Shown: positions 3,500 to 50,407 of the stretch, piece after piece
How positions within the stretch are numbered: the first letter of the stretch is position 1
Layout: each line of letters begins with the position of its first letter
Assembly (NCBI RefSeq): GCF_023078355.1
Contig: NZ_CP095552.1
Span: 4,092,001 to 4,156,000 of the forward strand
Length of the DNA: 64,000 nt
DNA from: Gordonia hongkongensis
GTDB taxonomy: Bacteria > Actinomycetota > Actinomycetes > Mycobacteriales > Mycobacteriaceae
Direction of reading: 5' to 3'
Notes under the pieces: model-generated
Told to the model about the DNA's origin: nothing
Databases searched by the model: none
What the model saw: the letters and a program-made list of their open reading frames with translations, nothing else
Made by a program: the position numbers and the translations under genes

Positions 3500-4840
3500 T
3501 CACCGTTGCGCGAGGACATCACCGATCCGGCACGCCATCATCATGATCGTCGCGTGTGGGCCACTGCGCCCGCTGGTGGGCAGAATGGACCCGTCGACGA
3601 TCCGGAGTCCGCGAACCCCGTACACCCCGCCGAGCCAATCGGTCCGGACGCCCATCGGCATCGTCCCCCACGCGTGCTGGGAGAACCCCGCCCGATCGGC
3701 GATCCGCACGCTCCCCGGAACGACGACGTCGGCGAACTCGGGCGCGCGCAGCATCTCCACGACCTCCGCGGCCGCCGTCCGCAGCGCGACGGCGGTGGCC
3801 GGGTCGGGCTCGTCGAACGCCAGCCGTACAGCGACGCCGTCGGCGACGATCCGAACCGCTGAATGCCTCATCGCGGTCACCTCGACGATCGGACCCCAGG
3901 CGCGCAGGCCGCGTATGTACGAGGCAAAATCATCTCGGTAACAGCGAATTTCGATACCGCTGTCGGTGTGCACCACCGTCGGCAACACCATGCCCGGCCC
4001 CGCCGGTGTCCGCCTGGCGTACGACACCGCCAGGCCTCGATGCTCCCCGGCACCCAGCGAACGGGCATCCGCACGACCCCCGATGTCGAGTGCGGGCAAC
4101 TCCGAACGCAACAGGATCCCCGCGGTACCGAGGGTGCCCGCGGCGAGGATCACCTCGCCCGCGCCGACCGTGAGCGAGCCCGCGTGCACGCCCGTCACCG
4201 TCGTACCCCCGGCCGACGCCACACGGTCCACTGTGCAACCGGTCACGACCCGGAGGTTGGGTCGCGACAGCGCCGGGACGAGGTACGCGTCGGCCGCCGA
4301 GCGGCGCGCGAGCCCGCTCCGATTGATCGGCACCCGGTTGAGCCCGACCACCGGCCACCGCAGCGCGAGCGGACGGACCGGTACCCGCGCCGTCCAGTAG
4401 CGCTCGAAAGCGGTTCCGGCGTCGCCGAGTTCGTCGTCGGCGACGGGTTCGACACCCATGGTGCCGCCGGGCGCGTCCAGTTCGTTGTACGCATCGGCGA
4501 TGGCGTCAAGCCCCCACCCGGCCGGCCACGTTCCGAAGTCGTCGCGATGCCACCTGAGGAAGTACCCGCCGTTCACCGCCGACGAACCGCCGAGAGCCGA
4601 CCCGCGGGCCGCCGACACCCCGAGGTTCGTGTCGTGGCGGACCGCATGCGGGGCGGCGTCGTCGATCGGTAGCCGAGACAGCTCGAGGTCCGCGGGGGTC
4701 GGCAGGCCTCCCGGACCGCGTTCCAGCAGCACGACCGTACGGTCGGGGTTCCGCGAGAGCCGCTCGGCGAGCACGCATCCGGCGCTGCCGGCGCCGACGA
4801 TGACGACGTCGGCGGTGAGCGACCGGTCGGTCGTCGTCAT
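3500..4840 (-). CDS. mftG: MftG, GMC-family mycofactocin-associated dehydrogenase
   Basis: A 446-residue glucose-methanol-choline oxidoreductase. The N-terminus has the FAD-binding GAGSAGCVLAERLS; ALGGSSAVNGGYFLRWH is the second GMC signature; the C-terminus has VDGSILPTSGRSGPHATIM. In mycobacteria MftG is linked to re-oxidation of reduced mycofactocin and transfer of electrons to the respiratory chain. The ATG overlaps the mftF stop codon as ATGA (4837-4840), which marks tight coupling. The position downstream of mftE and mftF supports the assignment over other GMC enzymes. Confidence 0.9.
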   Translation of the reverse strand: MTTTDRSLTADVVIVGAGSAGCVLAERLSRNPDRTVVLLERGPGGLPTPADLELSRLPIDDAAPHAVRHDTNLGVSAARGSALGGSSAVNGGYFLRWHRDDFGTWPAGWGLDAIADAYNELDAPGGTMGVEPVADDELGDAGTAFERYWTARVPVRPLALRWPVVGLNRVPINRSGLARRSAADAYLVPALSRPNLRVVTGCTVDRVASAGGTTVTGVHAGSLTVGAGEVILAAGTLGTAGILLRSELPALDIGGRADARSLGAGEHRGLAVSYARRTPAGPGMVLPTVVHTDSGIEIRCYRDDFASYIRGLRAWGPIVEVTAMRHSAVRIVADGVAVRLAFDEPDPATAVALRTAAAEVVEMLRAPEFADVVVPGSVRIADRAGFSQHAWGTMPMGVRTDWLGGVYGVRGLRIVDGSILPTSGRSGPHATIMMMACRIGDVLAQR

Positions 4841-6366
4841 CGAGAGATGACCGGGCGCAACGCTTCCGGGTCTCGGTGGGTGATGACGCCTTGCCACAGG
4901 CCCGCACCGTAGGCCAGGTCGTCGAGCCGGTGCATGAGGATGTAGCGCAGCGGGCCGAGCGTGGGCGGACTGGTCGGATCGGCGAGCAGATCCCGGACCC
5001 AGGACACCACCCCCTCGACGATCGCCACCTGCACGGCGAGGGTGCGGAAACGCTTGGACACGAGGGCGAGCAACACCGCCACCGGCCAATAGTGACGGCA
5101 GATGGCGTCAGCGGCCTGTAGCAGTCCGAACCCGGCCGCTCGTCCGGTCATCTGCGCCGACACCAGCGGGGCCGACGGCAGGTCGCCCAGTCGCCGCCGC
5201 ATCCGAACCGCCAGATGGGTGAGGATGATCATCGCCAGGGCGGCACCGAACCGCGTCCGCGACAGCAACGCCACCACCGCGGCGGCCATCGGAACCGACA
5301 TCTTCATCGGCGCCGCCCGGTCACCGTGCCGGGAGGCCAGGTGTGCGGCGCCGGTGCCGTAGAAACAGCGACGCGAGAGCACCGAGCGCAGGTCAGCGCG
5401 GTGCTCATGGGCCACACGAGCCACCGGGTCGTAACGGATCCGCCACCCCTCCGCGTGCATCCGCCAGCACGCGTCGACATCCTCGGCCACCCGCAGCGAC
5501 TCGTCGAAACCGCAGAAAGCGCTGCGCCGCACCACCATCGCGGCGCTGGGCACATACGGGGTCCGGGTCGAGGGCGCCACCGCGGACTCCTCGGGTCCCA
5601 TGTCCAGGGAGGACCACCCGTTCTCGTACCGCTCGGCCAGCGATGACGCCACCGCCGCGTCGGACTGCAATCCGACGATGCGCGGCGCGACGAGCCCGAC
5701 CGTGGGGTCGGAGAAGTGCGTCAGCAGGATGGTGAGCCAATCCGGGTCGGGCACGACGTCGGAGTCGAGGAATGCGACGAAGTCGGTCGTCGCGGCCTCC
5801 GCCCCCGCGTTGCGCGCCGCGGACGGACCACGGTTGTCGTCGAAGCGCAGGACCCGCGCCGTGGGCCGGTCCGCCACGATCGGGGTCGCGGAGCCGTCGT
5901 CCACGACGATGACCGTCAGCCCGTCGAGGGCGTCGAGCAGGCGATCGATGCCAGCCTGGTTGTCCCGGACCGGGACGACCACGGTCACGTCCTGCGGCTG
6001 CGGCCCGAACATGGGCCGGGGATTGGCGATCCCCGCGTCCAGCAGTGCGCGCGCCAGTCGTCGGGTTACGTTGTCGCACACCTCGATCCGACCGTCCTCG
6101 GAGGTCATCCCGAGTGCGGTGTCGGACATGCGCAGCAGCCGCGTCGGCGAACCGCCGACCAGATACCGGAAGTCGCCCGCCTTGGCACAGCGCAGGTCGA
6201 TCTGCACCTGGAAGCCGTCGGGCAGATCGGTGCGCGGCCCCGGAGTCGCGTCGGCGTCCGAGTGCGCTCCGGGTTCGACGGACTCCGAGTCGTCCCGGGC
6301 GGAGGCGTCGTCCGCGTCCTGGTTCCCGGCCCAGCGTCGTGGGGCCGAGTCGTCGAGGGCCGTCAT
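4837..6366 (-). CDS. mftF: MftF, mycofactocin glycosyltransferase
   Basis: A 509-residue family 2 glycosyltransferase that decorates premycofactocin with an oligoglucose chain. The first 45 residues are acidic and low in complexity. Residues 51-120 match the MftF-specific N-terminal domain (GFQVQIDLRC, then FRYLVGG). The GT-A domain starts near residue 127 with VTVVVPVRDN, followed by VIVVDDGS and the metal-binding FLDSDVVPDPDW. The C-terminal third is hydrophobic and may attach to the membrane. The start at 6366 overlaps the mftE stop as ATGA. A longer in-frame extension to 7047 runs through mftE in another frame and is not real. Confidence 0.93.
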   Translation of the reverse strand: MTALDDSAPRRWAGNQDADDASARDDSESVEPGAHSDADATPGPRTDLPDGFQVQIDLRCAKAGDFRYLVGGSPTRLLRMSDTALGMTSEDGRIEVCDNVTRRLARALLDAGIANPRPMFGPQPQDVTVVVPVRDNQAGIDRLLDALDGLTVIVVDDGSATPIVADRPTARVLRFDDNRGPSAARNAGAEAATTDFVAFLDSDVVPDPDWLTILLTHFSDPTVGLVAPRIVGLQSDAAVASSLAERYENGWSSLDMGPEESAVAPSTRTPYVPSAAMVVRRSAFCGFDESLRVAEDVDACWRMHAEGWRIRYDPVARVAHEHRADLRSVLSRRCFYGTGAAHLASRHGDRAAPMKMSVPMAAAVVALLSRTRFGAALAMIILTHLAVRMRRRLGDLPSAPLVSAQMTGRAAGFGLLQAADAICRHYWPVAVLLALVSKRFRTLAVQVAIVEGVVSWVRDLLADPTSPPTLGPLRYILMHRLDDLAYGAGLWQGVITHRDPEALRPVISR

Positions 6367-7073
6367 CCCAGGCGCCCCAGATCGTCGATCTGCCACGACT
6401 CCAGGGCGGCCCACAGGCGGTCGGTCACCCCGTCGACCAGACCCGCCCCCGTCTCGGCGCTCGCGCCCTCCGGGTCGCCGAGGACACCGTTGGGACTCAC
6501 GGCGGCGACACCGCCCGACCGCATCGCCCCCATCAGCGCCCCCACCGGCTCCCGGTTGCCCGTCACGGCACGGTCGGGATCCACGACGGACGGCGAAACA
6601 TGCAGCAGCACAGATGTTTCGGTGAATCCCGCGTGGGCGTCGGCGCCGTCGAAAGCGCACGGGAACCAGGCGACGTCCCGGCCCTCGTAGCGGAGTCGGG
6701 TCACCGCCTCGATCAGCGTCCGGGTGTTCCCGCCGTGTCCGTTGACGAACACCACGCGCGCCGCCCATCGGCACGCACTGCGGCCGTACTCGACGAGGAG
6801 GCCGCGCAACGCCTCGTGCCCGATCGAGATGGTCCCGGCGAAGCCCTCGTGTTCGCCGCTGGCGCCGTAGTTCAGGTCCGGTGCGCACAGGAGTCCGGAG
6901 GCCTTCGATCGTCCGCAGACGCGCTCGGCGATCGCCGCCGCGATACGCGTGTCGGTGTCGAGCGGGAGGTGGGGCCCGTGCTGCTCGACCGAACCGAGGG
7001 GCACCAGCAGGGTGATCACCTGCCCATCGAGGTCTGGCCAGTTGCACTGCCCCAACGCCGATGGCACCGTCAT
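6363..7073 (-). CDS. mftE: MftE, creatininase-family mycofactocin peptidase
   Basis: A 236-residue metallopeptidase of the creatininase family. MftE cleaves the modified C-terminal Val-Tyr dipeptide from the MftA precursor. Metal-binding landmarks are PLGSVEQHGPHLPLDTDT near the N-terminus and VNGHGGNTRTL in the middle. The start ATG 7073 gives MTVPSALGQ, close to family length. It heads an mftE-mftF-mftG block joined by ATGA overlaps. Unlike the order I recall in mycobacteria, mftE does not follow mftD directly: an SDR gene and the oppositely oriented racemase gene lie between them, so mftEFG needs its own promoter in 7074-7253. Confidence 0.93.
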   Translation of the reverse strand: MTVPSALGQCNWPDLDGQVITLLVPLGSVEQHGPHLPLDTDTRIAAAIAERVCGRSKASGLLCAPDLNYGASGEHEGFAGTISIGHEALRGLLVEYGRSACRWAARVVFVNGHGGNTRTLIEAVTRLRYEGRDVAWFPCAFDGADAHAGFTETSVLLHVSPSVVDPDRAVTGNREPVGALMGAMRSGGVAAVSPNGVLGDPEGASAETGAGLVDGVTDRLWAALESWQIDDLGRLG

Positions 7074-7253
7074 TCGACCAATGCTAGCGATGGGGCCTGC
7101 GAGTGTGTCGGTCTCGCCCGAAAAACGGAGCGAAAAACGCGTCCAGATGTCGCGAACCACCACTCTGACGAGCGTTCGATCGGTTGTGGAATGCTGAGAG
7201 CATCCAGTGATACCTGACACAGTGCGCGAACAACGATCGGGAGGACGACACCC

Positions 7254-8366
7254 ATGAGCAGTGCCACACCACACGACAGCGGCAAGCCCGGCCCACTGAG
7301 CTCGATCCGGGTCATCGAGTTCGCCGGTATCGGCCCCGGTCCGCATGCCGCCATGCTGCTGGCCGATCTCGGCGCCGACGTCGTGCGCGTTCAGCGTCCG
7401 GGGTCGCTGCCCAAGCCCGGCCGCAACGCCGATGCTCTGCTCCGCGGCCGACGCGTCGTCGAGGCCAATCTCAAGGACGACAACGACCGGGAGACCATTC
7501 TCGGCCTCGTCGCCAAGGCCGATGTGATCCTCGAGGGTTTCCGTCCCGGCGTGATGGAACGGCTCGGACTCGGACCCGACGACCTCGAGAAGGTCAATCC
7601 CGGCCTCGTCTACGGGCGCATGACCGGCTGGGGACAGGACGGACCCCGTGCCAACCTCGCCGGCCACGACATCAACTACATCTCGCTCACGGGCATGCTG
7701 CACGCCATCGGACGCAAGGACGATCGTCCCGTGCCCCCGCTCAACCTGGCCGGTGACTTCGGCGGCGGTTCGATGTTCCTCGTCGTCGGTGTGCTCGCGG
7801 CACTGCTCGAGCGCGGGGTGTCCGGCCGGGGACAGGTCGTCGACGCGGCCATGGTCGACGGCGCTTCCGTTCTGGGACAGATGATGTGGGCGTTCCGCGG
7901 CACCGGACTGTGGAGCGACACCCGGGGTGTGAACATGCTCGACACCGGCGCTCCGTACTACGAGGTCTACGAGACCTCCGACGGCAAGTACATGGCGGTC
8001 GGCGCGATCGAGCCGCAGTTCTACGCCGAGCTGCTCAAGGGCCTCGAACTCACCGACGCCGACCTGCCGGACCAGAACGACATCGCCCAGTGGGGGAAGC
8101 TGAAGGAGATCTTCACCGAGACCTTCAAGTCGCGTACCCGCGACGAATGGGCCGCGGTCTTCGAGGGCACCGACGCCTGCACCTCGCCGGTCCTCACCTT
8201 CGCCGAGGCACCCGCCGACGCCCACATGGCCGCCCGCGCCAACCTCGTCGACATCGACGGCGTGACCCAGGCCCAGGTGGCACCGCGCTTCTCGCGCACC
8301 AAGCCGGAGACCCCCACGGGCCCGACCACCGAGGCGACCGATCCGTCGACGCTCTGGGCCGACTGA
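7254..8366 (+). CDS. mcr: Alpha-methylacyl-CoA racemase (class III CoA-transferase fold)
   Basis: A 370-residue CoA-transferase family III protein. It would racemise the 2-methyl centre of branched acyl-CoA esters such as pristanoyl-CoA or the sterol side chain, which must be 2S for beta-oxidation. His138 (AGHDIN), Asp168 (AGDFGGG) and Glu253 (AIEPQFY) sit at a constant +12 offset from the catalytic His126, Asp156 and Glu241 of M. tuberculosis MCR as I recall them, strong support for racemase rather than CoA-transferase activity. GGGAGGACG precedes the ATG. It diverges from mftE across 180 bases and ends in a hairpin at 8375-8405. Confidence 0.9.
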
Positions 8367-8374
8367 GGGTCCCG

Positions 8375-8405
8375 CCACCGCTTCTCCGTGCGGGAGAAGC
8401 GGTGG
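8375..8405 (+). terminator. Hairpin terminator after mcr
   Basis: CCACCGCTTCTCC (8375-8387) pairs perfectly with GGAGAAGCGGTGG (8393-8405) around a 5-base loop. It starts 9 bases after the mcr stop codon. There is no T tract, as is common in GC-rich actinobacteria. Confidence 0.65.
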
Positions 8406-8406
8406 T

Positions 8407-8596
8407 GACCCGCCCATTGCTCCCCGAGGTTCCAGGAGCGGTCGGACCCGCCCATTGCTCCCCGAGGTGCGAGGAGCGAAAGCCGCCGGGCCGAGCAAGC
8501 GACGAAGGAGCGCGTCGAGGTCGACGAGCCACGAAGGGCGACAACTCACGTCGCCCTTCGTGGCTCGCTTCGCTCGCACCTCAGGGAGCAGATGAA
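8407..8596. repeat. Intergenic repeat family A, first cluster
   Basis: This gene-free stretch between the convergent mcr and SDR genes holds a perfect 24-base direct repeat at 8407-8430 and 8445-8468 (core ATTGCTCCCCGAGGT). It continues into GTGCGAGGAGCG, a perfect hairpin of GAGCCACGAAGGG type at 8526-8566, and finally CTCGCACCTCAGGGAGCAG. The same words recur at 15.07, 23.6, 52.9 and 61.5 kb. Confidence 0.75.
8526..8566. terminator. Bidirectional 17-bp hairpin between convergent genes
   Basis: GAGCCACGAAGGGCGAC (8526-8542) pairs without mismatch with GTCGCCCTTCGTGGCTC (8550-8566) across a 7-base loop. It lies between mcr on the plus strand and the SDR gene on the minus strand, so it can form in both transcripts. 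Confidence 0.6.
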
Positions 8597-8644: not shown

Positions 8645-9457
8645 TCAGACCTTCGAATGCCCCATGTCGATCTGGAACTCGGCCGCGGTGATCCCCTTGG
8701 CACTGTCGGACGCGAGGTAGAGGACGGCGTCGGAGATCTCGTCGAGCGCGGCGACCGGATGGTAGTCGAGGATCGACGTGAAATGCGGTTTGACCCAGGG
8801 GATTCCGAAGATCCGGTGGGCCTCGGTGTCAGCCACACCCATCGGGGTGTCGACCGCGTACGGGTGCACGCTGTTCACCCGGATGCGGTGATGCCCGAGC
8901 TCTTTGGCGGTCGTCTGCGTCAGTCCGACGAGGCCGTACTTCGACGCCGAGTACGACGCCTGCATCGGCATCGCCTTCAGGCCCGCAACCGAGCTGATCA
9001 CGGTGATCGAGCCGCCGTTGGCCGCTTCGAGCATCGCCGGGATGGTGGCCTTCAGCGTCTTCCACGCACCGACGAGGTTGATGTCGACGACGTCGGTGAA
9101 CTGTTCTTCACTGAGCTCCCAGACCTTGCCCCAGGTCAGCACGCCGGCGTTGGCGACCACGTGGTCGAGCCGGCCGAACTGCTCGACGGCGTCGGCCACG
9201 AGCTGCTGCTGGAAGGCGAGGTCCCGGGTGTCACCCTGTCGCACAAGGATCTTCCCACCGACGCCCTCGACGAGACGGATCGTCTCGGCTAGGTCGTCGG
9301 CGGTGGCCGCGGGGTAGGTCGCATGGTCGATGATCGGACCCGCGATGTCCAGGCCGACGATCGCGGCCCCCTCACGAGCGAACCGGATCGCGTGGTTGCG
9401 ACCTTGACCCCGGGCGATGCCGGTGATGTAGACGACCTTGCCGTCGAACTGTCCCAT
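8645..9457 (-). CDS. Mycofactocin-coupled short-chain dehydrogenase
   Basis: A 270-residue classical SDR. It has the nucleotide motif GIARGQGRNHA near the N-terminus, VANAGV and the catalytic YSASK. An extra loop before the usual DVT region (YPAATADDLAETIRLVEGVGGKI) is the hallmark of the SDR subfamily that keeps its nicotinamide cofactor bound and hands electrons to mycofactocin. It follows mftD on the same strand, as an SDR does in the M. tuberculosis locus (Rv0687 in my recollection). The start at 9457 lies only 8 bases from a KstR-type operator, so the transcript may have almost no leader. The substrate is unknown; a sterol or terpenoid alcohol would fit the operator. Confidence 0.88.
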   Translation of the reverse strand: MGQFDGKVVYITGIARGQGRNHAIRFAREGAAIVGLDIAGPIIDHATYPAATADDLAETIRLVEGVGGKILVRQGDTRDLAFQQQLVADAVEQFGRLDHVVANAGVLTWGKVWELSEEQFTDVVDINLVGAWKTLKATIPAMLEAANGGSITVISSVAGLKAMPMQASYSASKYGLVGLTQTTAKELGHHRIRVNSVHPYAVDTPMGVADTEAHRIFGIPWVKPHFTSILDYHPVAALDEISDAVLYLASDSAKGITAAEFQIDMGHSKV

Positions 9458-9458
9458 G

Positions 9459-9486
9459 GCAGAACTGTAACACGTTCTAGTTCTGC
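9459..9486. promoter_or_regulatory. KstR-type operator inside a 28-bp dyad before the MFT-coupled SDR
   Basis: TGTAACACGTTCTA at 9466-9479 fits the KstR consensus TNNAACNNGTTNNA. It is embedded in a larger dyad whose outer arms GCAGAACT (9459-9466) and AGTTCTGC (9479-9486) are perfectly complementary. The site ends immediately before the SDR start codon at 9457. Confidence 0.65.
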
Positions 9487-9532: not shown

Positions 9533-10732
9533 TCAGATGCTCCCGAACGAGCGGGTGAAACCGTCGGGAACGACGAGGTCGGCGGCCGACAGCTCGTGCA
9601 CGCTCTTGTGCCCGAGACCCATCAGCACACCGTCGAGCCCCATGCGCAGGAGATCCAGCACGTTCTCCACACCGGCCTGGCCGTTGGCCGCGAGACCCCA
9701 GAGGTACGCACGGCCGATCATGACCGCGCGGGCCCCGAGCGCCAACGCCTTGGCCACATCGCTGCCGCGTCGGATACCACCGTCGAGCAGGACCTCGATG
9801 TCGTTGCCCACGGCCGTCGCGATGTCGGGGAGAAGGCGGATCGTGGCGGGGGTGCCGTCGAGGTTGTTGCCACCGTGGTTGGACACCGACAGTGCGGTTG
9901 CGCCGATGTCCACCGCACGCTTGGCATCGTCGAGGCGGGTGATGCCCTTGACCATGAACGGCCCATCCCACTGCTCGCGCAACCACTTCAGGTCTTCCCA
10001 GGTGGGCGGCGGGGTGCTCATCCACGAGCCGTAGGCGCCGAAGAACGTCGGTCCCGGCACCCCCTGCGGTGTGAGGTTGGGTGCGGTCAGGTCGGGGATG
10101 TTGATCTTTCCGCCCTTGACCCAGTCGAGTGCGTACCGCGGCTTGACCGCGATCTCCGGCCCCAGGCGCAGCAGCGCCTTGAGGTTGACCTTCTCGGGGA
10201 TCTCGGGGCTGCCCCAGTCGCGCCCGACGTTGAAGACCCAGTCGGTGGTGACGATGAGACCTTTCGCACCGGCCGCCTTGGCGCGCTCGGCTCGGGCGAG
10301 GATCTCGTCGCGGCTGCCCAGCCAGTAGATCTGGAAGTGGACCTTGTCGTTGACGGCGGTGACCTCTTCGACCGCGTGCGAGGCGAAGCTCGACAGTCCC
10401 ATCGCGGTGCCACGGGCGGCCGCCGCGCGGGCCACGGCCACCTCACCGTCCGGGTCGACGGCCTGCACACCCGTCGGCGAGATCATCACCGGGAACGAGA
10501 TCTCCTCTCCCATCACCGTTGTCGTCATCTCGCGGTCGGACTGCGCACCGACGACGTGCGGCGCCCAGCCCAGTTCGGAGAACGCGCGGACGTTGTCGTC
10601 GACGGTGACACCGGCCTGCGTACCGGCGACCAGCGACGAGTACACCGATTTGGGCAGCCGCTTCTTGGCCCGGCGCTGCGCCTCGGTGACGGTCTCGAAC
10701 CAGGGATTTCGGGCCCAGGGGTTGGCAGACAT
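9533..10732 (-). CDS. mftD: MftD, FMN-dependent premycofactocin synthase
   Basis: A 399-residue member of the FMN-dependent alpha-hydroxy-acid dehydrogenase family. MftD oxidatively deaminates the peptide-derived lactam to give the redox-active dione of premycofactocin. Landmarks are FPVMISPTGVQAV, the flavin-site VTTDW, MVKGI, and the catalytic SNHGGNNLDG followed by LLDGGIRRGSDV and MIGRAYLWG. ATG 10732 is chosen because AGTAGGAAG sits 4-5 bases upstream; ATG 10747 and 10759 are in-frame alternatives. MftC ends 102 bases upstream on the same strand. It corresponds to the gene once annotated lldD1 in M. tuberculosis. Confidence 0.93.
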   Translation of the reverse strand: MSANPWARNPWFETVTEAQRRAKKRLPKSVYSSLVAGTQAGVTVDDNVRAFSELGWAPHVVGAQSDREMTTTVMGEEISFPVMISPTGVQAVDPDGEVAVARAAAARGTAMGLSSFASHAVEEVTAVNDKVHFQIYWLGSRDEILARAERAKAAGAKGLIVTTDWVFNVGRDWGSPEIPEKVNLKALLRLGPEIAVKPRYALDWVKGGKINIPDLTAPNLTPQGVPGPTFFGAYGSWMSTPPPTWEDLKWLREQWDGPFMVKGITRLDDAKRAVDIGATALSVSNHGGNNLDGTPATIRLLPDIATAVGNDIEVLLDGGIRRGSDVAKALALGARAVMIGRAYLWGLAANGQAGVENVLDLLRMGLDGVLMGLGHKSVHELSAADLVVPDGFTRSFGSI

Positions 10733-10834
10733 GTTCTTCCTACTCATTGATCCATCCATGGAGACCGGTTGGCTCTCATGGAGACGGGGCGCCGGTTCCG
10801 ACGACGGCGCGCCCCGTGGTGTACCGCGGGCGAT

Positions 10835-12130
10835 CTACCGCGCGGCGGGGGTGAACCCGGCGAGCGGGTTCTCGTCACAGGACTTGGTGGGACGCGAGGC
10901 CACCGGGCTCAGGTCGCCGTCGGGCCGCCGGGTCATCAGGGTCAGCGGCGTGCCGCGTGAATGGTCCTTGTTGGCGGTCGGTTTCGTGCGGTCGCCGGCG
11001 AGGAGCTCCTCACCGTAACCCTGCACGCACTCCGGGTCCGGGCCGGCGAGCGGGAGGCCGGTGAAGAACTTCGCGGCCATGCACCCGCCGCGGCAGGCGT
11101 CGAAATGCGCGCACTTCGTGCAGGCGCCGGCATTCTGCGGTTCGCGCAATTCGGTGAACAGGTCCGACCGCTGCCAGATCTCCTGGAATCCGCCGTCGGA
11201 CAGGATGTTCCCGGCGAGGAAGTTCTCGTGGATCGCGAACGGGCATGCGTACACGTCGCCGACCGGGTCGATGAGGCAGACCACGCGTCCCGCACCACAC
11301 AGATTGAGGCCGGGGAGGCCGCCGCCGGAATCGGAACCGAACGCCGACAGATGGAAGAACGAGTCACCCGTCAGCACTCGATCACCGTGTGCGACAAGCC
11401 AGTCGTAGAGTTCGCGCTGCTGGTGCGGCAACGGATGCAGGTCATCCCACACGTCGGCACCCCGGCCGGAGGGGCGCAACCGGGTGATGCGCAGCGTGGC
11501 GTTGTAGCGGTCGGCGAGCGCCTTGAACTCGTCGAGTTGCGCGACGTTCTGTCGTGTCATGACGACGCTGATCTTGGCGTCGGCGAAACCCGCCTCTGCC
11601 AGGTTCTCCAGCGCACGGACGGCCATGTCGAACGAACCCGGACCGCGGACCGCGTCGTTGACCTCCGCGGTGGCACCGTCCAGCGAGATCTGGACGTCGA
11701 CATAATCCGACGCCGCGAGTCTCGCGGCCACCTTCTTGTCGATGCGCAGGCCGTTGGTGGAGAACTTCACCCCCACCTGATGGCTGGTGGCGTAGTCGAC
11801 GAGCTCCCAGAAGTCCGGGCGAACGGTAGGTTCGCCGCCGCCGATGTTGACGTAGAAGACCTGCATCCGCTGCAGCTCGTCGATGATCGCCTTGCACTGT
11901 TCGGTGGACAGCTCGCGGGGATCGCGTTTGCCCGACGACGACAGACAGTGCACGCACGCGAGGTTGCACGCATAGGTCAGTTCCCAGGTGAGGCAGATGG
12001 GCGCGTCGAGACCCTTCTCGAACTGGTCGACGAGCCGGCCGACCTTCGGCACCTCGCCTGCGGTGGGCGCGGGCGCCCGGAGTGCACTCGCGAATTCGGT
12101 TGCTGTGGGCGGCATCTCGATGGTCGTCAT
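10835..12130 (-). CDS. mftC: MftC, radical SAM mycofactocin peptide maturase
   Basis: A 431-residue radical SAM/SPASM enzyme. It oxidatively decarboxylates the C-terminal Tyr of MftA and then links it to the preceding Val. The radical SAM cluster ligands are Cys55, Cys59 and Cys62 (ACNLACVHC). C-terminal SPASM cysteines appear in CGAGRVVC, YACPF and CTKCAHFDACRGGC for the auxiliary clusters. ATG 12130 follows AAGGA; the in-frame ATG at 12190 is less likely. The roughly 30 residues before RLVDQFEKGLDAP and the basic C-terminal tail are longer than in the mycobacterial protein. MftB ends 73 bases upstream. Confidence 0.95.
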   Translation of the reverse strand: MTTIEMPPTATEFASALRAPAPTAGEVPKVGRLVDQFEKGLDAPICLTWELTYACNLACVHCLSSSGKRDPRELSTEQCKAIIDELQRMQVFYVNIGGGEPTVRPDFWELVDYATSHQVGVKFSTNGLRIDKKVAARLAASDYVDVQISLDGATAEVNDAVRGPGSFDMAVRALENLAEAGFADAKISVVMTRQNVAQLDEFKALADRYNATLRITRLRPSGRGADVWDDLHPLPHQQRELYDWLVAHGDRVLTGDSFFHLSAFGSDSGGGLPGLNLCGAGRVVCLIDPVGDVYACPFAIHENFLAGNILSDGGFQEIWQRSDLFTELREPQNAGACTKCAHFDACRGGCMAAKFFTGLPLAGPDPECVQGYGEELLAGDRTKPTANKDHSRGTPLTLMTRRPDGDLSPVASRPTKSCDENPLAGFTPAAR

Positions 12131-12203
12131 CGTTGAGGTCCTTGCATTCGGGGCTGGCGGTTCGGAACTGGGACGTCCGGGCCGGGACATCGGGCCTGAT
12201 CGC

Positions 12204-12554
12204 TCAGGAGCGGGGCACGATCATGCCGCTGTCGGCGAGCGCGGTGAGCGCCTGCAGGTACAGGGGACGTTGGGCGGGCGAGATCCCGGCGGCGAGGAGG
12301 GCGGCCTCCGCCGAGTCGTGGTCGGCGAGCGATAGCACGATGCCGACGACGGTGAGGTTCTTGAGGAACGACAGCTTGCGCGTACCGAAGTGGTACAGCA
12401 GCGCGCCGAACGGTTCCGGCCGCAGAGCGACCTTCGGATTGAGCCGCCACGGCTCGAGCGTGTCGAAACCGGGCGCCTCGGCTGGGGTGTCGAACCGGAC
12501 CCCGGCGACCGCGGAACGGTCGCCGGAGGTCGGATTCGATGTCGGGGCTGACAT
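12204..12554 (-). CDS. mftB: MftB, mycofactocin precursor-binding chaperone
   Basis: A 116-residue RiPP recognition element protein that binds the MftA leader and presents the core to MftC. The family signature region is LNPKVALRPEPFGALLYHFGTRKLSFL. The ATG at 12554 shares its A with the TGA of mftA (TGATG), so the two are translationally coupled. An in-frame extension to 12668 overlaps mftA in another frame and is rejected. Confidence 0.93.
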   Translation of the reverse strand: MSAPTSNPTSGDRSAVAGVRFDTPAEAPGFDTLEPWRLNPKVALRPEPFGALLYHFGTRKLSFLKNLTVVGIVLSLADHDSAEAALLAAGISPAQRPLYLQALTALADSGMIVPRS

Positions 12555-12661
12555 CAGTAGACCCCGCACATCCCGTCGATCGAGACCTCTTCGACGAGTG
12601 ACTCGGCGAGGAGTTCGGTGTCGTTCGAGCTGTGACTGGTCGCAGCGGACTGATCTGCCAT
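12554..12661 (-). CDS. mftA: MftA, mycofactocin precursor peptide
   Basis: A 35-residue peptide, too short for ordinary ORF calling. The acidic helical leader ([13 protein letters not shown]) is followed by the invariant core DGMCGVY at the C-terminus. MftC modifies the final Val-Tyr and MftE releases it to become the cofactor. AGGAGG at 12670-12675, eight bases before the ATG, is the strongest ribosome site in the locus, fitting a precursor needed in bulk. The stop overlaps the mftB start by one base. It is the first gene of the mft operon and diverges from mftR. Confidence 0.96.
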
Positions 12662-12688
12662 GATCCATACCTCCTGGTTGGTGGGTTA

Positions 12689-12702: not shown

Positions 12703-12819
12703 GACAGACTTTAGTGGCACTCGGTGCAGAAATCCAGCGTTTGCGAGCGAACTGCCCGAATGGCCAGGTGGACGGTTCTGCCGATCCGAACGACACCGGT
12801 CCCATAGGCTGAGGTCCCG

Positions 12820-13437
12820 ATGACCACGAAGATGCGCGGTGACGAGCCCGCACGTACCCCGCCGGGCCGGCGCCCCATCACGTCGCGTGCGCAGATCAGC
12901 GCACTCGCGATCCGCCTCTTCACCACCCAGGGCTTCGAGGACACCAGCGTCGACGACATCGCCGAGGCGGCCGGGATAGCCCGGCGCACACTGTTCCGGT
13001 ACTACTCGTCGAAGAACGAGATCCCGTGGGGCGAGTTCGACGACCATCTCCGCGAACTACGCACCCTCCTCGCCGGCATCCCGCGCGAGACGCCGATGGC
13101 ACAGGCCCTCGTCGACGCCCTCGTCTCGTTCAACCGGGTGCCCGCCGAGGAACTCGACAACCATCGCCGACGTATGTCCCTCCTCCTCGGGGTGCCTGCG
13201 CTGCAGGCACATTCGATGATCGTCTATGCCGACTGGCGTCAGGTCATCGCCGAGTTCTGCGCGACCCGGCTGGGCGTCGATGTCCGCGATCACCTGCCGC
13301 AGACCATCGGCTGGCTGTGTCTCGGTGCCGCCCTCGCCGCGTACGAGAAATGGCTCGACGACCCCGATGCCGACCTGGAGACGCTCATCGAGTCCGGCGC
13401 GCGCACCGTGGCCGACGGCGTGGCGGCCCTGGCGTGA
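12820..13437 (+). CDS. mftR: MftR, TetR-family regulator of mycofactocin genes
   Basis: A 205-residue TetR protein. The N-terminal helix-turn-helix spans roughly residues 20-65, from ALAIRLFTTQGFEDTSVDDIAEAAGIA to RTLFRYYSSKNEI. The C-terminal domain contains the conserved GVPALQAHSMIVYADWR and GWLCLGAALAAYEKWL. Mycobacterial MftR represses the mft operon and is released by long-chain acyl-CoAs. It diverges from mftA across 158 bases, the standard arrangement for this locus. Confidence 0.92.
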   Translation: MTTKMRGDEPARTPPGRRPITSRAQISALAIRLFTTQGFEDTSVDDIAEAAGIARRTLFRYYSSKNEIPWGEFDDHLRELRTLLAGIPRETPMAQALVDALVSFNRVPAEELDNHRRRMSLLLGVPALQAHSMIVYADWRQVIAEFCATRLGVDVRDHLPQTIGWLCLGAALAAYEKWLDDPDADLETLIESGARTVADGVAALA

Positions 13438-13511: not shown

Positions 13512-13525
13512 TAGAACGTGTTCTA
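13512..13525. promoter_or_regulatory. KstR operator upstream of kshB
   Basis: TAGAACGTGTTCTA matches the KstR consensus TNNAACNNGTTNNA at every fixed position and has perfect 6-base arms. It lies 43 bases before the kshB start codon. KstR is the TetR repressor of early sterol catabolism, which fits the identity of the gene. Confidence 0.85.
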
Positions 13526-13568: not shown

Positions 13569-14627
13569 ATGTCTGACCTGACCCCTCACGGTTCACGCAG
13601 CGTGATCCTCACGGTGTCCGAGGTGATCGACGAGACGGCCGAGGCCAAGTCCATCGCCTTCGAGGTACCCGAGGCCTCGCCGAAGCCGTTCACCGATTAC
13701 AAACCGGGGCAGTTCCTCACGCTACGGATTCCGAGCGAGCAGACCGGCTCAGTCGCGCGCTGCTACTCCCTCGCGTCGTCGCCGTTCACCGACCCGCGGC
13801 CCAAGGTGACCGTGAAGCGCACCGCCGACGGCTACGGATCCAACTGGGTGTGCGACAACCTCTCCCCCGGCACCCAGGTCGAGGTGCTGCCGCCGTCGGG
13901 CGTGTTCACCCCGAAGTCCTATGACACCCCATTGCTGCTCATCGCGGCGGGCAGCGGTGTCACGCCGGTGATGTCGATCCTCAAGGCGGCCCTCGAGAAG
14001 GGCGGCGCACCGATCGTCTTCTTCTATGCCAACCGGGACGTCGCCGACGTGATCTTCGCCGCCGAACTCCGAGAACTCCTGGCCGCCCACCCGGATCGGC
14101 TCACCCTCGTCCACTGGCTCGAATCACTCCAGGGTCTGCCGAGTGCGGCCGCTCTGGCAACGGCTTTCGCGCCCTACGCGACGTCGCACGTCGCCTACAT
14201 GTGCGGACCGGGCCCGTTCATGGATGCCGTCCACAAGGGTCTGTCGGACGCGAACTTCCCGCACCACAACGTCCACACCGAGGTCTACAACTCGCTGTCC
14301 GGCGACCCGTTCGCCGACGTCGAACTCGGCGAGGTGAGTGAGGAGGAGCAGGCGGGTGCCGCCACCGTCGAGGTGGAGCTCGACGGTGAGACCCACACCC
14401 TGACCTGGCCTCGCTCACGAACTCTCGTCGACATCATGCTCGCCGCCGGACTCGATGCGCCGTATTCCTGCCAGGAGGGTGAGTGCGGTTCGTGCGCCTG
14501 CACTCTCACCGAGGGCAGCGTCGACATGGACAACGCCGGCGCGCTCGACCCCGAGGACATCGAGGACGGGTACATCCTCGGCTGTCAGGCGCATCCGACA
14601 TCGGACACGCTGAAGATCGAATTCTGA
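13569..14627 (+). CDS. kshB: KshB, reductase of 3-ketosteroid 9-alpha-hydroxylase
   Basis: A 352-residue reductase that passes electrons from NAD(P)H to the Rieske oxygenase KshA, which opens the steroid ring system together with KstD. The N-terminal ferredoxin-reductase domain has RCYSLASSP for FAD and LIAAGSGVTPVMSIL plus YMCGPGPFM for the nicotinamide cofactor. The C-terminal plant-type 2Fe-2S domain has CQEGECGSCAC and a distal ILGCQ cysteine. The upstream KstR box strongly supports the steroid role over generic phenol-hydroxylase reductases of the same architecture. No kshA is present in the window. Confidence 0.88.
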   Translation: MSDLTPHGSRSVILTVSEVIDETAEAKSIAFEVPEASPKPFTDYKPGQFLTLRIPSEQTGSVARCYSLASSPFTDPRPKVTVKRTADGYGSNWVCDNLSPGTQVEVLPPSGVFTPKSYDTPLLLIAAGSGVTPVMSILKAALEKGGAPIVFFYANRDVADVIFAAELRELLAAHPDRLTLVHWLESLQGLPSAAALATAFAPYATSHVAYMCGPGPFMDAVHKGLSDANFPHHNVHTEVYNSLSGDPFADVELGEVSEEEQAGAATVEVELDGETHTLTWPRSRTLVDIMLAAGLDAPYSCQEGECGSCACTLTEGSVDMDNAGALDPEDIEDGYILGCQAHPTSDTLKIEF

Positions 14628-38946: not shown

Positions 38947-40065
38947 ATGTCTCTCACCACCAAGGCAGCTGTCCTCACCGGACCCGGAAAGCCGTTCGAG
39001 ATCGTCGAACTCGACCTCGACGAGCCCCGCGAAGGCGAAGTGCTGATCAAGTACACCGCGGCCGGCCTGTGCCACTCCGACCTTCACCTGACCGACGGCG
39101 ACCTCCCGCCCCGCTATCCCATCGTGGGCGGCCACGAGGGTTCGGGGATCATCGAGGCGGTCGGCCCGGGCGTCACCAAGGTCAAGCCCGGCGACCACGT
39201 GGTCTGCAGCTTCATCCCGAACTGCGGCACCTGCCGCTACTGCTCCACCGGCCGGCAGAACCTCTGCGACATGGGCGCCACCATCCTCGAGGGATCGATG
39301 CCCGATGGCACATTCCGATTCCACGGTGGCGGTGACGATTTCGGAGCCATGTGCATGCTCGGCACGTTCGCCGAACGCGCGACGATCTCGCAGCACTCGG
39401 TCGTCAAGGTCGACGAGTGGTTGCCGCTCGACAAGGCAGTGCTCGTCGGTTGCGGCGTGCCCTCGGGCTGGGGCACCTCGGTGTACGCGGGCGGCGTACG
39501 TGCCGGCGACACCGTGGTGATCTACGGCATCGGCGGCCTGGGCATCAACGCGGTGCAGGGCGCGGTGTCGGCCGGGGCCAAATACGTCGTGGTGGTCGAC
39601 CCGGTCGCGCTCAAGCGCGACACGGCGCTCAAATTCGGTGCAACACATGCCTTCGCCGACGCCGCCGAGGCCGCGGAGAAGGTCAACGAACTGACCTGGG
39701 GGCAGGGTGCCGACCAGGCCCTCATCCTCGTCGGCACGGTCGACGCGGAGGTCGTGGCCAACGCGACCGCCGTCGTGGGCAAGGGCGGGACGGTCGTCAT
39801 CACCGGTCTTGCCGATCCGACGAAGCTGACCGTGCAGGTCTCCGGAACCGATCTGACCCTGAACCAGAAAACCATCAAGGGCAGTCTGTTCGGCTCGGCC
39901 AATCCGCAGTACGACATCGTCAAACTGCTGCGCCTGTACGACGCGGGGCAGCTCAAGCTCGACGAACTGGTCACGCAGACCTACACCCTCGACCAGGTCA
40001 ACGAGGGCTACCAGGATCTGCGGGACGGCAAGAACATCCGCGGGGTCATCATCCACGCGGAGTGA
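38947..40065 (+). CDS. NDMA-type, mycofactocin-dependent alcohol dehydrogenase
   Basis: A 372-residue zinc alcohol dehydrogenase. Catalytic zinc ligands lie in LCHSDLH and GGHEGSG; structural zinc cysteines are in CGTCRYCSTGRQNLC. The NAD fold is YGIGGLGINAVQGAVSAGA. HYD-type PQYDIVKLLRLYDAGQLKLDELVTQ and the QVNEGYQDLRDGKNIRGVI ending closely resemble the M. tuberculosis protein I recall as Rv0761c. That subfamily keeps NAD bound and, in vivo, passes electrons to mycofactocin, with nitrosodimethylaniline as artificial acceptor. AGGAGC precedes the ATG. A 13-bp hairpin ends the operon. Confidence 0.88.
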   Translation: MSLTTKAAVLTGPGKPFEIVELDLDEPREGEVLIKYTAAGLCHSDLHLTDGDLPPRYPIVGGHEGSGIIEAVGPGVTKVKPGDHVVCSFIPNCGTCRYCSTGRQNLCDMGATILEGSMPDGTFRFHGGGDDFGAMCMLGTFAERATISQHSVVKVDEWLPLDKAVLVGCGVPSGWGTSVYAGGVRAGDTVVIYGIGGLGINAVQGAVSAGAKYVVVVDPVALKRDTALKFGATHAFADAAEAAEKVNELTWGQGADQALILVGTVDAEVVANATAVVGKGGTVVITGLADPTKLTVQVSGTDLTLNQKTIKGSLFGSANPQYDIVKLLRLYDAGQLKLDELVTQTYTLDQVNEGYQDLRDGKNIRGVIIHAE

Positions 40066-46796: not shown

Positions 46797-46810
46797 GTGA
46801 ACACGTTCTA
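46797..46810. promoter_or_regulatory. Near-consensus KstR site before the fadD17-like gene
   Basis: GTGAACACGTTCTA fits TNNAACNNGTTNNA except for the first base. It ends 10 bases before the ATG of the fadD17-like gene, whose homologue is a KstR target in mycobacteria. Confidence 0.6.
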
Positions 46811-46820
46811 GATTTGCCGC

Positions 46821-48410
46821 ATGGCCGAGACAGTCACCCAGCTCCTGCAGGCACGCGCCGACGACGACAACCTCGCGATCACCTACGAGGGTCGGCAATG
46901 GACGTGGCGCGAGTACATTCGCGACGCCGAACGCGCCGCGTCGGCGATTCTCGGCATCGCCGACACCGAGCGCCCGCTGCATGTGGGTGTGCTGCTCGGG
47001 AACACGCCGGACATGCTGATCGCCCTGGCCGCCGGCGCGCTGGGCGGTTACGTGACGGCGGGGATCAACAACACTCGCCGCGGTGAGGGTCTGGCGGCCG
47101 ACATCGTGCGCGCGGACTGTCAGATCCTGCTCACCGACGCCGAGCACCGCCCTCTCCTCGATGGCTTGGAGCTACCGGGCGTGACGGTGCTGGACACCTC
47201 TACTCCGCAGTGGGCCGAGATGCTCTCCGGCGCCGCGGAGTTGACCCCGCATTCGGTACCCGGGGCGATGGACACGTTCATGCTGATCTTCACCTCGGGG
47301 ACCAGTGGAAACCCCAAGCCGGTCCAGTTCGCGCACATGATGATGCCGTTCGCGGGTCCGGTGCTCGCCGACAAATACGACATCGGCCCCGGCGACGTCT
47401 GCTACCTGTCGATGCCCCTGTTCCACAGTGCCGCGCTCATGGGGGGTTACTGCGTCGCACTGTGCGGCGGTGCCGCGATCGCGCCCGCCAAGTTCTCCGC
47501 CTCGACCTTCCTGGCCGACATCCGCCGCTACAACGCGACGTACATGAACTACGTGGGCAAACCGCTCGCCTACATCCTGGCCACCGAGGAGAGGCCCGAC
47601 GACGCCGACAATCCGCTCCGGGTGGCGTTCGGCAACGAGGCCACCGACCGCGACATCGACGATTTCTCGCGCCGGTTCGGTTGCACCGTCTGGGACGGCT
47701 TCGGTTCCACCGAGCTGGCGATCATCATCACCCGTGAGCCCGGCACGCCGCACGGTTCGATCGGCAAGGGTTTCCCGAACGTCGCCGTGTACAACTCGTC
47801 GACGCTGACCGAATGCCCGCGTGCCGAATTCGACTCCAGCGGAGCGCTTATCAATGCCGACGACGCGATCGGCGAGCTGGTGAACATCGAGGGCGGCGGG
47901 ATGTTCATGGGCTACTACAACGATTCCGACGCCACCAGCGAGCGTCTCCGCCACGGGATGTACTGGTCGGGCGACCTCGCGTACAAGGACGCCGACGACT
48001 GGATCTACCTCGCCGGCCGGACCGGCGACTGGATGCGCGTCGACGGCGAGAACCTCGCCGCCGGACCGATCGAACGGGTGCTGTTGCGCGTTCCCGAGAT
48101 CAATCGCGTTGCCGTGTATGCCGTTCCGGACGACCACGTCGGCGATGCGGTGATGGCCGCCGTTGTCCTGCAGGACGGCGTCGAGCTGACCCCGGAGTCC
48201 TTCGCCGAACAGCTTGCCGCACAGGCCGACCTGTCGCCGAAAGCGTGGCCGACGTATGTCCGGATCGAGGACGACCTGCCCACGACCGCAACGAACAAGA
48301 TCCTCAAGCGCACCCTGAAATCCGAGGGAGCCGTCCCCGGCACGGGCACACTCTGGGTGCGCGAGCCGCGGTCCCGCGTGTATCGACAAGCCGTCGCCGC
48401 ACAGGCATGA
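46821..48410 (+). CDS. fadD17: FadD17-like acyl-CoA synthetase
   Basis: A 529-residue ANL-superfamily ligase that activates carboxylates, probably of a degraded sterol side chain, to CoA thioesters. The AMP-binding loop is LIFTSGTSGNPKPV; later motifs are DGFGSTE, YWSGDLAYKD and GRTGDWMRVDGENL, with the catalytic Lys near TNKILKRTL. HVGVLLGNTPDML and FSASTFLADIRRYNATYMNYVGKPLAYILAT closely match M. tuberculosis FadD17 as I remember it. The KstR-like site supports the assignment. It ends in an ATGA overlap with the flavoprotein gene. Confidence 0.8.
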   Translation: MAETVTQLLQARADDDNLAITYEGRQWTWREYIRDAERAASAILGIADTERPLHVGVLLGNTPDMLIALAAGALGGYVTAGINNTRRGEGLAADIVRADCQILLTDAEHRPLLDGLELPGVTVLDTSTPQWAEMLSGAAELTPHSVPGAMDTFMLIFTSGTSGNPKPVQFAHMMMPFAGPVLADKYDIGPGDVCYLSMPLFHSAALMGGYCVALCGGAAIAPAKFSASTFLADIRRYNATYMNYVGKPLAYILATEERPDDADNPLRVAFGNEATDRDIDDFSRRFGCTVWDGFGSTELAIIITREPGTPHGSIGKGFPNVAVYNSSTLTECPRAEFDSSGALINADDAIGELVNIEGGGMFMGYYNDSDATSERLRHGMYWSGDLAYKDADDWIYLAGRTGDWMRVDGENLAAGPIERVLLRVPEINRVAVYAVPDDHVGDAVMAAVVLQDGVELTPESFAEQLAAQADLSPKAWPTYVRIEDDLPTTATNKILKRTLKSEGAVPGTGTLWVREPRSRVYRQAVAAQA

Positions 48411-49543: not shown

Positions 49544-50407
49544 TCAGTCGGGCACGCCGGGTGGCACCGAGTTCAGCAACGCGCCCGCCTCGACCCGGAG
49601 CTGTTGACCGGTCACGTACCGGGCAGCATCGGACACCAGGTAGAGGACCGCCTCGGTGACATCCTCCGGCGCGAGCAGGTCCACCGGCATCGCGTGCAAC
49701 GACGCGAAGACGTCCTTGACGTCGTCGTAGACCGGCTTCTCGAGATCGGGTCGGAACAGCCGGTAGAGTTCGTCGTGATGCACCATCGCGGTGTCGACGT
49801 TGCCGGGATGAATCGCGTTGACGCGAATACCTTTCGGCGCCAGGTGCCGGGCGAGGTCGTTGACGAGTCGCGCCACCGCTCGTTTCGAGTGGCCGTAACC
49901 GCCTGCACCCGGCCCGGCCTGCGCGGACTCGAACGACGGCATGAACGCGGCCATCGAACCGATGCAGACGATCGATGCACCCGCTTCGAGGTGCGGCAGA
50001 GACAACTCGAGGGTGTTGATCACCCCACCGAGATTCACCGACACCGTGTTCAGCCAGGTGACCGAGGGACTCTCGGGCCCGAGCGGGCTGATACCGGCGT
50101 TGGCCACGACGATGTCGAGTCTGCCGAACTGCGCCACCGCGTCGTCGATCGCGGCCTGCAGGGCGTCCCGGCTGCGGACGTCGGCGATCTTCGCGATCAC
50201 CCGACTGTCCGTCGCGTCGACCATCTTCGCGGTCTGCTGCAGGTCGTCCGGGGTACTCATCGCGTAATTGACCGTCGTGATCTGATCGCAGATGTCGACG
50301 GCGATGATGTCGGCACCCTGCTCGGCCATCCGCACGGCGTGGCTGCGTCCCTGGCCCCGTGCCGCGCCCGTCACGAGTGCGACCTTCCCGTCGAGTCTGG
50401 TACTCAC
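49544..50407 (-). CDS. Mycofactocin-type short-chain dehydrogenase
   Basis: A 287-residue SDR with VTGAARGQGRSHAVRMAEQGA, the extra loop ICDQITTVNYAMSTPDDLQQTAKMV, VANAGIS and catalytic YGHSK. GARGQGRSHA plus the added TPDDL-type loop is the signature of SDRs that need mycofactocin as external electron acceptor. The start is GTG 50407, five bases after AGGAGAG. It is convergent with the flavoprotein gene, with only three bases between stops, and divergent from the kinase-like gene. The substrate is unknown. Confidence 0.87.
   Translation of the reverse strand: MSTRLDGKVALVTGAARGQGRSHAVRMAEQGADIIAVDICDQITTVNYAMSTPDDLQQTAKMVDATDSRVIAKIADVRSRDALQAAIDDAVAQFGRLDIVVANAGISPLGPESPSVTWLNTVSVNLGGVINTLELSLPHLEAGASIVCIGSMAAFMPSFESAQAGPGAGGYGHSKRAVARLVNDLARHLAPKGIRVNAIHPGNVDTAMVHHDELYRLFRPDLEKPVYDDVKDVFASLHAMPVDLLAPEDVTEAVLYLVSDAARYVTGQQLRVEAGALLNSVPPGVPD

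Follow-up and report, generated by a model that had tools for sequence, protein, structure and literature searches.

Does the 28-bp dyad at the start of an SDR gene in the mycofactocin (MFT) cluster of Gordonia hongkongensis hold an operator for KstR, and would it join the sterol regulon to a mycofactocin-dependent oxidation? The window, that is the whole 64,000-nucleotide stretch of DNA analysed, carries mft genes together with mftR and a KshB-like reductase (Table 1). The SDR gene sits inside the cluster, between mftD and mftE. The mft genes do not form a single operon here, since a CoA-transferase gene on the opposite strand (7254-8366) parts the SDR and mftD from mftE-mftG. Carveol-dehydrogenase-type nicotinoprotein SDRs (Haft 2017, PMC5264612; 3PGX) belong to the same TIGR03971 family as the SDR here, and 3pgx, grouped with Rv0687 in that paper, is its best PDB match and best solved relative by sequence. 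mftC was found in 61 of 62 family genomes with the SDR and 32 of 59 without it, and KstR in 62/62 and 33/59, respectively, both comparisons being among related genomes with kinship uncorrected. Assignment of the SDR as mycofactocin-coupled is well supported in silico. The window also holds a second NDMA-dependent alcohol dehydrogenase (38947-40065) and a second TIGR03971 SDR (49577-50395, 338.7 bits).

Table 1. Features of the SDR locus and of the second boxed gene, with the evidence for each
Feature	Position	Strand	Evidence or remark
mftG, GMC oxidoreductase, start approximate	3500..4840	-	TIGR04542 625.1 bits on ORF 3500-5089
mftF, glycosyltransferase, start approximate	4837..6366	-	TIGR03965 476.6 bits on ORF 4837-7047
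mftE	6363..7055	-	TIGR03964 338.1 bits, residues 509-736 of ORF 6363-8579
CoA-transferase family III gene	7254..8366	+	between SDR and mftE
Mycofactocin-coupled SDR, probable nicotinoprotein	8645..9457	-	NCBIfam TIGR03971 317.2 bits, curated cut-off 300
28-bp dyad, encloses putative operator	9459..9486	.	arms perfect; full arms in 11/58 genus genomes
Predicted -10 element TACAGT, overlaps putative operator	9464..9469	-	TANNNT at this place in 58/58 genus genomes
Putative KstR operator of SDR, sense strand TAGAACGTGTTACA	9466..9479	-	consensus fit, matrix score 26.6, genus conservation 58/58
mftD, premycofactocin synthase, start approximate	9533..10732	-	TIGR03966 703.6 bits on ORF 9533-10759
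mftC, radical SAM maturase, start approximate	10835..12130	-	TIGR03962 651.6 bits on ORF 10835-12190
mftB region, start approximate	12204..12554	-	TIGR03967 104 bits on ORF 12204-12668
mftA precursor peptide, C-terminal IDGMCGVY	12554..12661	-	direct read
MftR-operator-like sequence upstream of mftA	12713..12731	.	two mismatches to published operator
mftR, TetR-type regulator of mycofactocin	12820..13437	+	TIGR03968 278.5 bits, cut-off 224.9
Perfect KstR box TAGAACGTGTTCTA before KshB-like reductase	13512..13525	+	score 33.0, window best
KshB-like reductase	13569..14627	+	Pfam FAD_binding_6, NAD_binding_1, Fer2; PaaE model 225 bits, below cut-off 421
Degenerate KstR-like box GTGAACACGTTCTA, tentative	46797..46810	+	10 nt before CoA-ligase start; score 13.2, third-best in window
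NDMA-dependent alcohol dehydrogenase	L093:1213-2343 (G000:C1:3432715-3433842)		TIGR03989 564.8 bits, cut-off 440
KstR box of that dehydrogenase	L093:2444-2457		about 100 nt before gene

Direct reading of the dyad (GCAGAACTGTAACACGTTCTAGTTCTGC, 9459-9486) bore out its description in the initial annotation. The outer arms (9459-9466 and 9479-9486) are 8 bp each and perfectly complementary, and the dyad does end beside the SDR start codon, with a single base (9458) between it and the ATG at 9457-9455 on the minus strand. The core at 9466-9479 (TGTAACACGTTCTA) matches the 14-bp KstR palindrome TNNAACNNGTTNNA, published as TnnAACnnGTTnnA (Kendall et al. 2007, PMC1995591), so that the fit to the KstR consensus claimed earlier was also confirmed. 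This pattern occurred twice in the window against 0.16 expected per 64 kb (first-order Markov null, 100 simulations). A KstR matrix was built from 24 sites of the genome, leaving out the two window sites and the site of an NDMA-dependent alcohol dehydrogenase described below. With this matrix the site at the kshB-like gene scored 33.0, that at the dehydrogenase 30.0 and that at the SDR 26.6; the maximum in 40 simulated 64-kb windows was 15.3, and 26.6 was reached by no position in them. The emphasis placed on the 28-bp dyad as a unit did not hold. Full 8-bp arms are kept in just 11 of 58 genomes of the genus, own included, and 11 dyads with perfect 8-bp arms and a 12-bp spacer are present in the window (null mean 2.8, maximum 8, 50 simulations). 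The outer arms, rarely conserved and frequent in the window, were rejected as a functional feature, and the outer part of the dyad is probably incidental; the significant element is the 14-bp box and not the 28-bp dyad. As a separate observation, the 11 dyads are an excess over the null within the window and are perhaps terminators.

Across the 5.41-Mb genome the consensus fitted at 52 places, versus 14 for the reversed pattern; of 50 that were listed, the 48 lying outside the window were inspected. By simple gene calls, sites with a TAGAAC half were intergenic in 25 of 28 cases and those without it in 4 of 20. The TAGAAC-half sites adjoin genes for KstR, 3-ketosteroid dehydrogenase (kstD), HsaA, a steroid thiolase and FadD8, all over NCBIfam cut-offs, as well as KshA (by Pfam domain) and an HsaD-like hydrolase (below cut-off), with many other flanking genes giving no NCBIfam match at the strict thresholds applied. 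Within the window no matrix match above 5.1 was found besides the sites at the SDR, at the kshB-like gene and at 46797, the last of which falls below the null maximum and is a tentative KstR site at most. The CoA ligase that follows it (46821-48410) scored 904.6 bits with the FadD1 model and 495 bits, below cut-off, with the steroid-22-oyl-CoA synthetase model; TAGATT stands 6 nt ahead of its ATG, an arrangement matching that at the SDR site. The genome encodes one clear KstR (NF033703, 343.3 bits, cut-off 280), the next TetR protein scoring 52 bits. This bears on the idea that the box is used by another KstR-type TetR regulator and not by KstR itself: the genome holds 48 other weak matches to the KstR model, and KstR paralogues are known from environmental actinomycetes (PMC3388012), but as a single gene passes the cut-off, control by such a paralogue is very unlikely.

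The mycofactocin regulator was considered as well, the dyad then being an MftR operator through which the SDR would be co-regulated with mycofactocin synthesis. mftR lies in the same cluster and TetR regulators bind palindromes; however, a scan with the published operator, T-N2-GGCA-N5-TGCC-N2-A (PMC8728441), found no match with up to two mismatches at the dyad and did find one upstream of mftA, at a distance of 52-70 nt that is close to the placement of the MftR operator in M. smegmatis (-79 to -53; PMC8728441). Matches of that quality number 30 in the window versus 21 expected, and the support for the sequence at 12713-12731 is therefore its position alone. The SDR box, moreover, matches the sterol-gene boxes of this genome. 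An MftR operator at the dyad was rejected by pattern and is in our view highly improbable; as far as sequence patterns indicate, the SDR and the genes for the cofactor appear to answer to different switches.

Conservation of the box with the SDR was read in a set of named loci and in a set of genus genomes, which are not independent because they overlap (one contig in both). The named loci were the best 80 of at least 574 found with MftD, and among these 80 the closest MftD was that of Gordonia lacunae (98%). The SDR was present in 16 of 18 Gordonia/Williamsia-like loci (L001-L018, one labelled Kitasatospora), none being detected within L015 and L016, and a consensus box lay within about 75 bp before it in 15 of those 16, with no box at the SDR of a Williamsia locus (L017). 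Three named species (L004, L005 and L007) have an inverted SDR, and in each the box has turned with it, its position and direction with respect to the gene being unchanged. The genus search found the SDR in 58 of 59 genomes and a box upstream of it in 58/58, own included in both counts, with scores of at least 19.3; the identical TAGAACGTGTTACA was present in 55/58 and the reversed-sequence control gave 0/58. A hairpin between mftD and the SDR, serving as terminator or processing site, would fit the perfect arms and the position of the dyad 46 nt past the mftD stop but is scarcely credible, as direct reading found no T run after the dyad in the sense direction, the full arms persist in 11/58 genus genomes against 58/58 for the core, and the box stays with the inverted SDR.

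Some further features of the named loci were observed. The KshB-like gene lies close to mftR in this genome, as it does in 17 of the 18 Gordonia/Williamsia-like loci (not L016), a positional tie between the mycofactocin cluster and a sterol gene. Williamsia maris carries two mft clusters (L016 and L018) on one contig, about 26 kb apart, and in the L016 cluster the SDR, the KshB-like gene, mftR, mftE and mftF were not detected. The record titled Kitasatospora arboriphila (L014) groups with Williamsia loci by gene order and SDR tree and is possibly mislabelled or contaminated.

Beyond the genus, all 62 SDR places in a family sample of 121 genomes were read (54 genomes and 8 second copies, the latter perhaps paralogues), and a box scoring at least 13 was found at 22 of the 62. 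By genus code, the box was present throughout in g10 (7/7), g12 (1/1) and g19 (2/2), at most places in g29 (4/6) and partially in g18 (3/6), g27 (3/7) and g23 (2/5), with none at the SDR places of g4 (7), g9 (12), g15 (3), g22 (3) or g25, g26 and g31 (1 each). Missing boxes are not explained by a missing KstR, since each of the 62 family genomes with the SDR has KstR, and this patchy distribution counts against the operator reading. Three Mycobacterium loci (L057, L069 and L079) have the SDR near mft genes with the box present, and their SDRs are placed next to the Gordonia-Rhodococcus group in a tree of 53 sequences, rooted at the midpoint and with no printed support values. Going by gene order, we presume that these three SDRs correspond to Rv0687.

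The sense strand across box and start reads TAGAACGTGTTACAGTTCTGCCATG, in which the predicted -10 element TACAGT is followed by 6 nt and then the ATG; TACAGT spans the end of the box in all 58 genus genomes. GTT follows the box in 58/58 genus genomes, and in all 58 the end of the box lies no more than 113 nt from the start codon, the box-to-start spacing being 8-10 nt in 33. With start codons picked by script as those nearest to the start of the window protein, a Shine-Dalgarno-like tetramer at -20 to -5 was absent from 33/33 short-spaced starts and found in 25/25 long-spaced ones. The 33 short-spaced starts without a ribosome site imply a leaderless mRNA, which for the SDR probably starts at the ATG. 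The TGTAAC half of the box occurs in none of the 24 matrix training sites, and we infer that its double role as the -10 element has preserved this asymmetric half. By sequence, the box probably overlies a promoter of the SDR gene.

The explanation we strongly favour is that the box at 9466-9479 is a KstR operator, in front of a gene that is the Gordonia counterpart of an established member of the regulon. The operator would cover the -10 element of a promoter belonging to the SDR itself, where in the absence of sterol a KstR dimer on TAGAACGTGTTACA would block polymerase. A sterol-derived CoA thioester (the ligand of KstR is 3-oxo-4-cholestenoyl-CoA) would release KstR, and the SDR would be transcribed, probably as a leaderless mRNA from the ATG. 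With NAD bound, the SDR would then oxidise a sterol-pathway or lipid alcohol and hand the electrons to mycofactocin, whose own genes would probably be under MftR. KstR binding, mycofactocin use and the sterol-pathway role of the SDR are all things that we infer from sequence. Read-through may blunt KstR control, as the box follows mftD within what looks like an operon.

A listed box was also found near one only of the four TIGR03989 genes over cut-off in the genome, the NDMA-dependent alcohol dehydrogenase of Table 1, which adjoins a FadD5-type ligase. TIGR03989 enzymes are said to have been named as mycofactocin partners by Haft in 2011. The dehydrogenase box was present in 58 of 59 genus genomes, own included, a count that left out second dehydrogenase copies (63-64%) in G001 and G027; in the exception (L220) the contig ends just 76 nt upstream of the dehydrogenase. 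Outside the genus a box was found at 27 of the 42 dehydrogenase places read, out of 56 in all, where 1/42 reversed controls also passed 13 (maximum 18.4), and the relatives there at 63-69% may be a different paralogue. One genome (G010) keeps the dehydrogenase with its box and has neither mftC nor an SDR match at the thresholds used. Its assembly is 90% complete in 90 contigs, and as mft and the SDR are neighbours one assembly gap could explain both losses; the case either counts against a strict need of the dehydrogenase for mycofactocin or is such a gap. A search of open-licence papers found none mentioning both an NDMA-dependent alcohol dehydrogenase and cholesterol. The enzyme is listed here as a second predicted nicotinoprotein under KstR.

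We take MSMEG_1410 and Rv0687 to be orthologues. A link between KstR and this SDR is already in print at the gene level: Table 3 of Kendall 2007 (PMC1995591) has Rv0687 with motif GTTAGAACACGTTACAGTTT, the EMSA being marked not determined, and MSMEG_1410 is among four additional motif instances in that paper, lying inside an operon and tied to the KstR regulon of its Table 4. On the strength of its motif and of microarray data, the paper counts MSMEG_1410 with the KstR regulon of M. smegmatis (PMC1995591). The initial annotation had proposed that the dyad connects the sterol regulon to an MFT-dependent oxidation and did not recall an earlier description; KstR and the MFT-coupled SDR are well supported in silico, but the claim to novelty falls to the Kendall 2007 entries for Rv0687 and MSMEG_1410. 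The Gordonia gene resembles both in its KstR motif and its MFT-coupled SDR type, shares the asymmetric half GTTACAGTT with Rv0687, and as at MSMEG_1410 its motif lies inside an operon (PMC1995591). It differs from them in its setting, with mftD and mftE on either side of the SDR and a KshB-like gene nearby, in a box that overlaps what is likely a leaderless promoter, and in having had its conservation counted across 58 genomes. What is new here is this conservation, the promoter anatomy and the second KstR-boxed nicotinoprotein-type alcohol dehydrogenase.

MSMEG_1410 has been termed a probable MFT-associated nicotinoprotein (PMC6529628) and an MFT-dependent dehydrogenase needed for carveol catabolism (PMC8728441), and its deletion left growth on ethanol and on ethanol-solubilised cholesterol normal (PMC6529628). 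The mft genes were predicted to be necessary on cholesterol, an effect later traced largely to the ethanol solvent (PMC6529628); an mftD mutant of M. tuberculosis was restricted in cholesterol that had been solubilised with ethanol, for which the authors of that study point to the ethanol (PMC8406134). MftR responded in vitro to long-chain acyl-CoAs and not to cholesterol (PMC8728441). Phytosterol has been described as inducing alcohol dehydrogenase genes that carry putative KstR sites in Mycobacterium sp. VKM Ac-1817D (PMC6593523); the word mycofactocin does not occur in the main text of that paper, and the likeness to the enzymes here is by description. The main text of Haft 2017 (PMC5264612) mentions neither cholesterol, steroid nor KstR, and that of an Rv0687 knockout paper (PMC11277061) neither cholesterol nor KstR. 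Within the accessible part of the open-licence literature, no paper joining KstR, this SDR and mycofactocin was found.

The main value of these data lies in uniting two sets of published facts that were found side by side and not joined, together with the promoter anatomy and the second boxed enzyme. It is possible, though we advance it tentatively and think it somewhat doubtful, that sterol catabolism has a branch dedicated to mycofactocin and driven by KstR, in which the SDR and the NDMA-dependent alcohol dehydrogenase would oxidise sterol-derived alcohols without free NAD and electrons would pass via mycofactocin to respiration, under two keys, KstR for the enzymes and MftR for the cofactor. 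If true, such a branch would be a metabolic reason for the reported need of mft genes on cholesterol. The conservation of KstR boxes at two predicted mycofactocin enzymes suggests that a real sterol link may exist besides the ethanol effect, a link thereby made testable with ethanol-free sterol and defined steroid alcohols.
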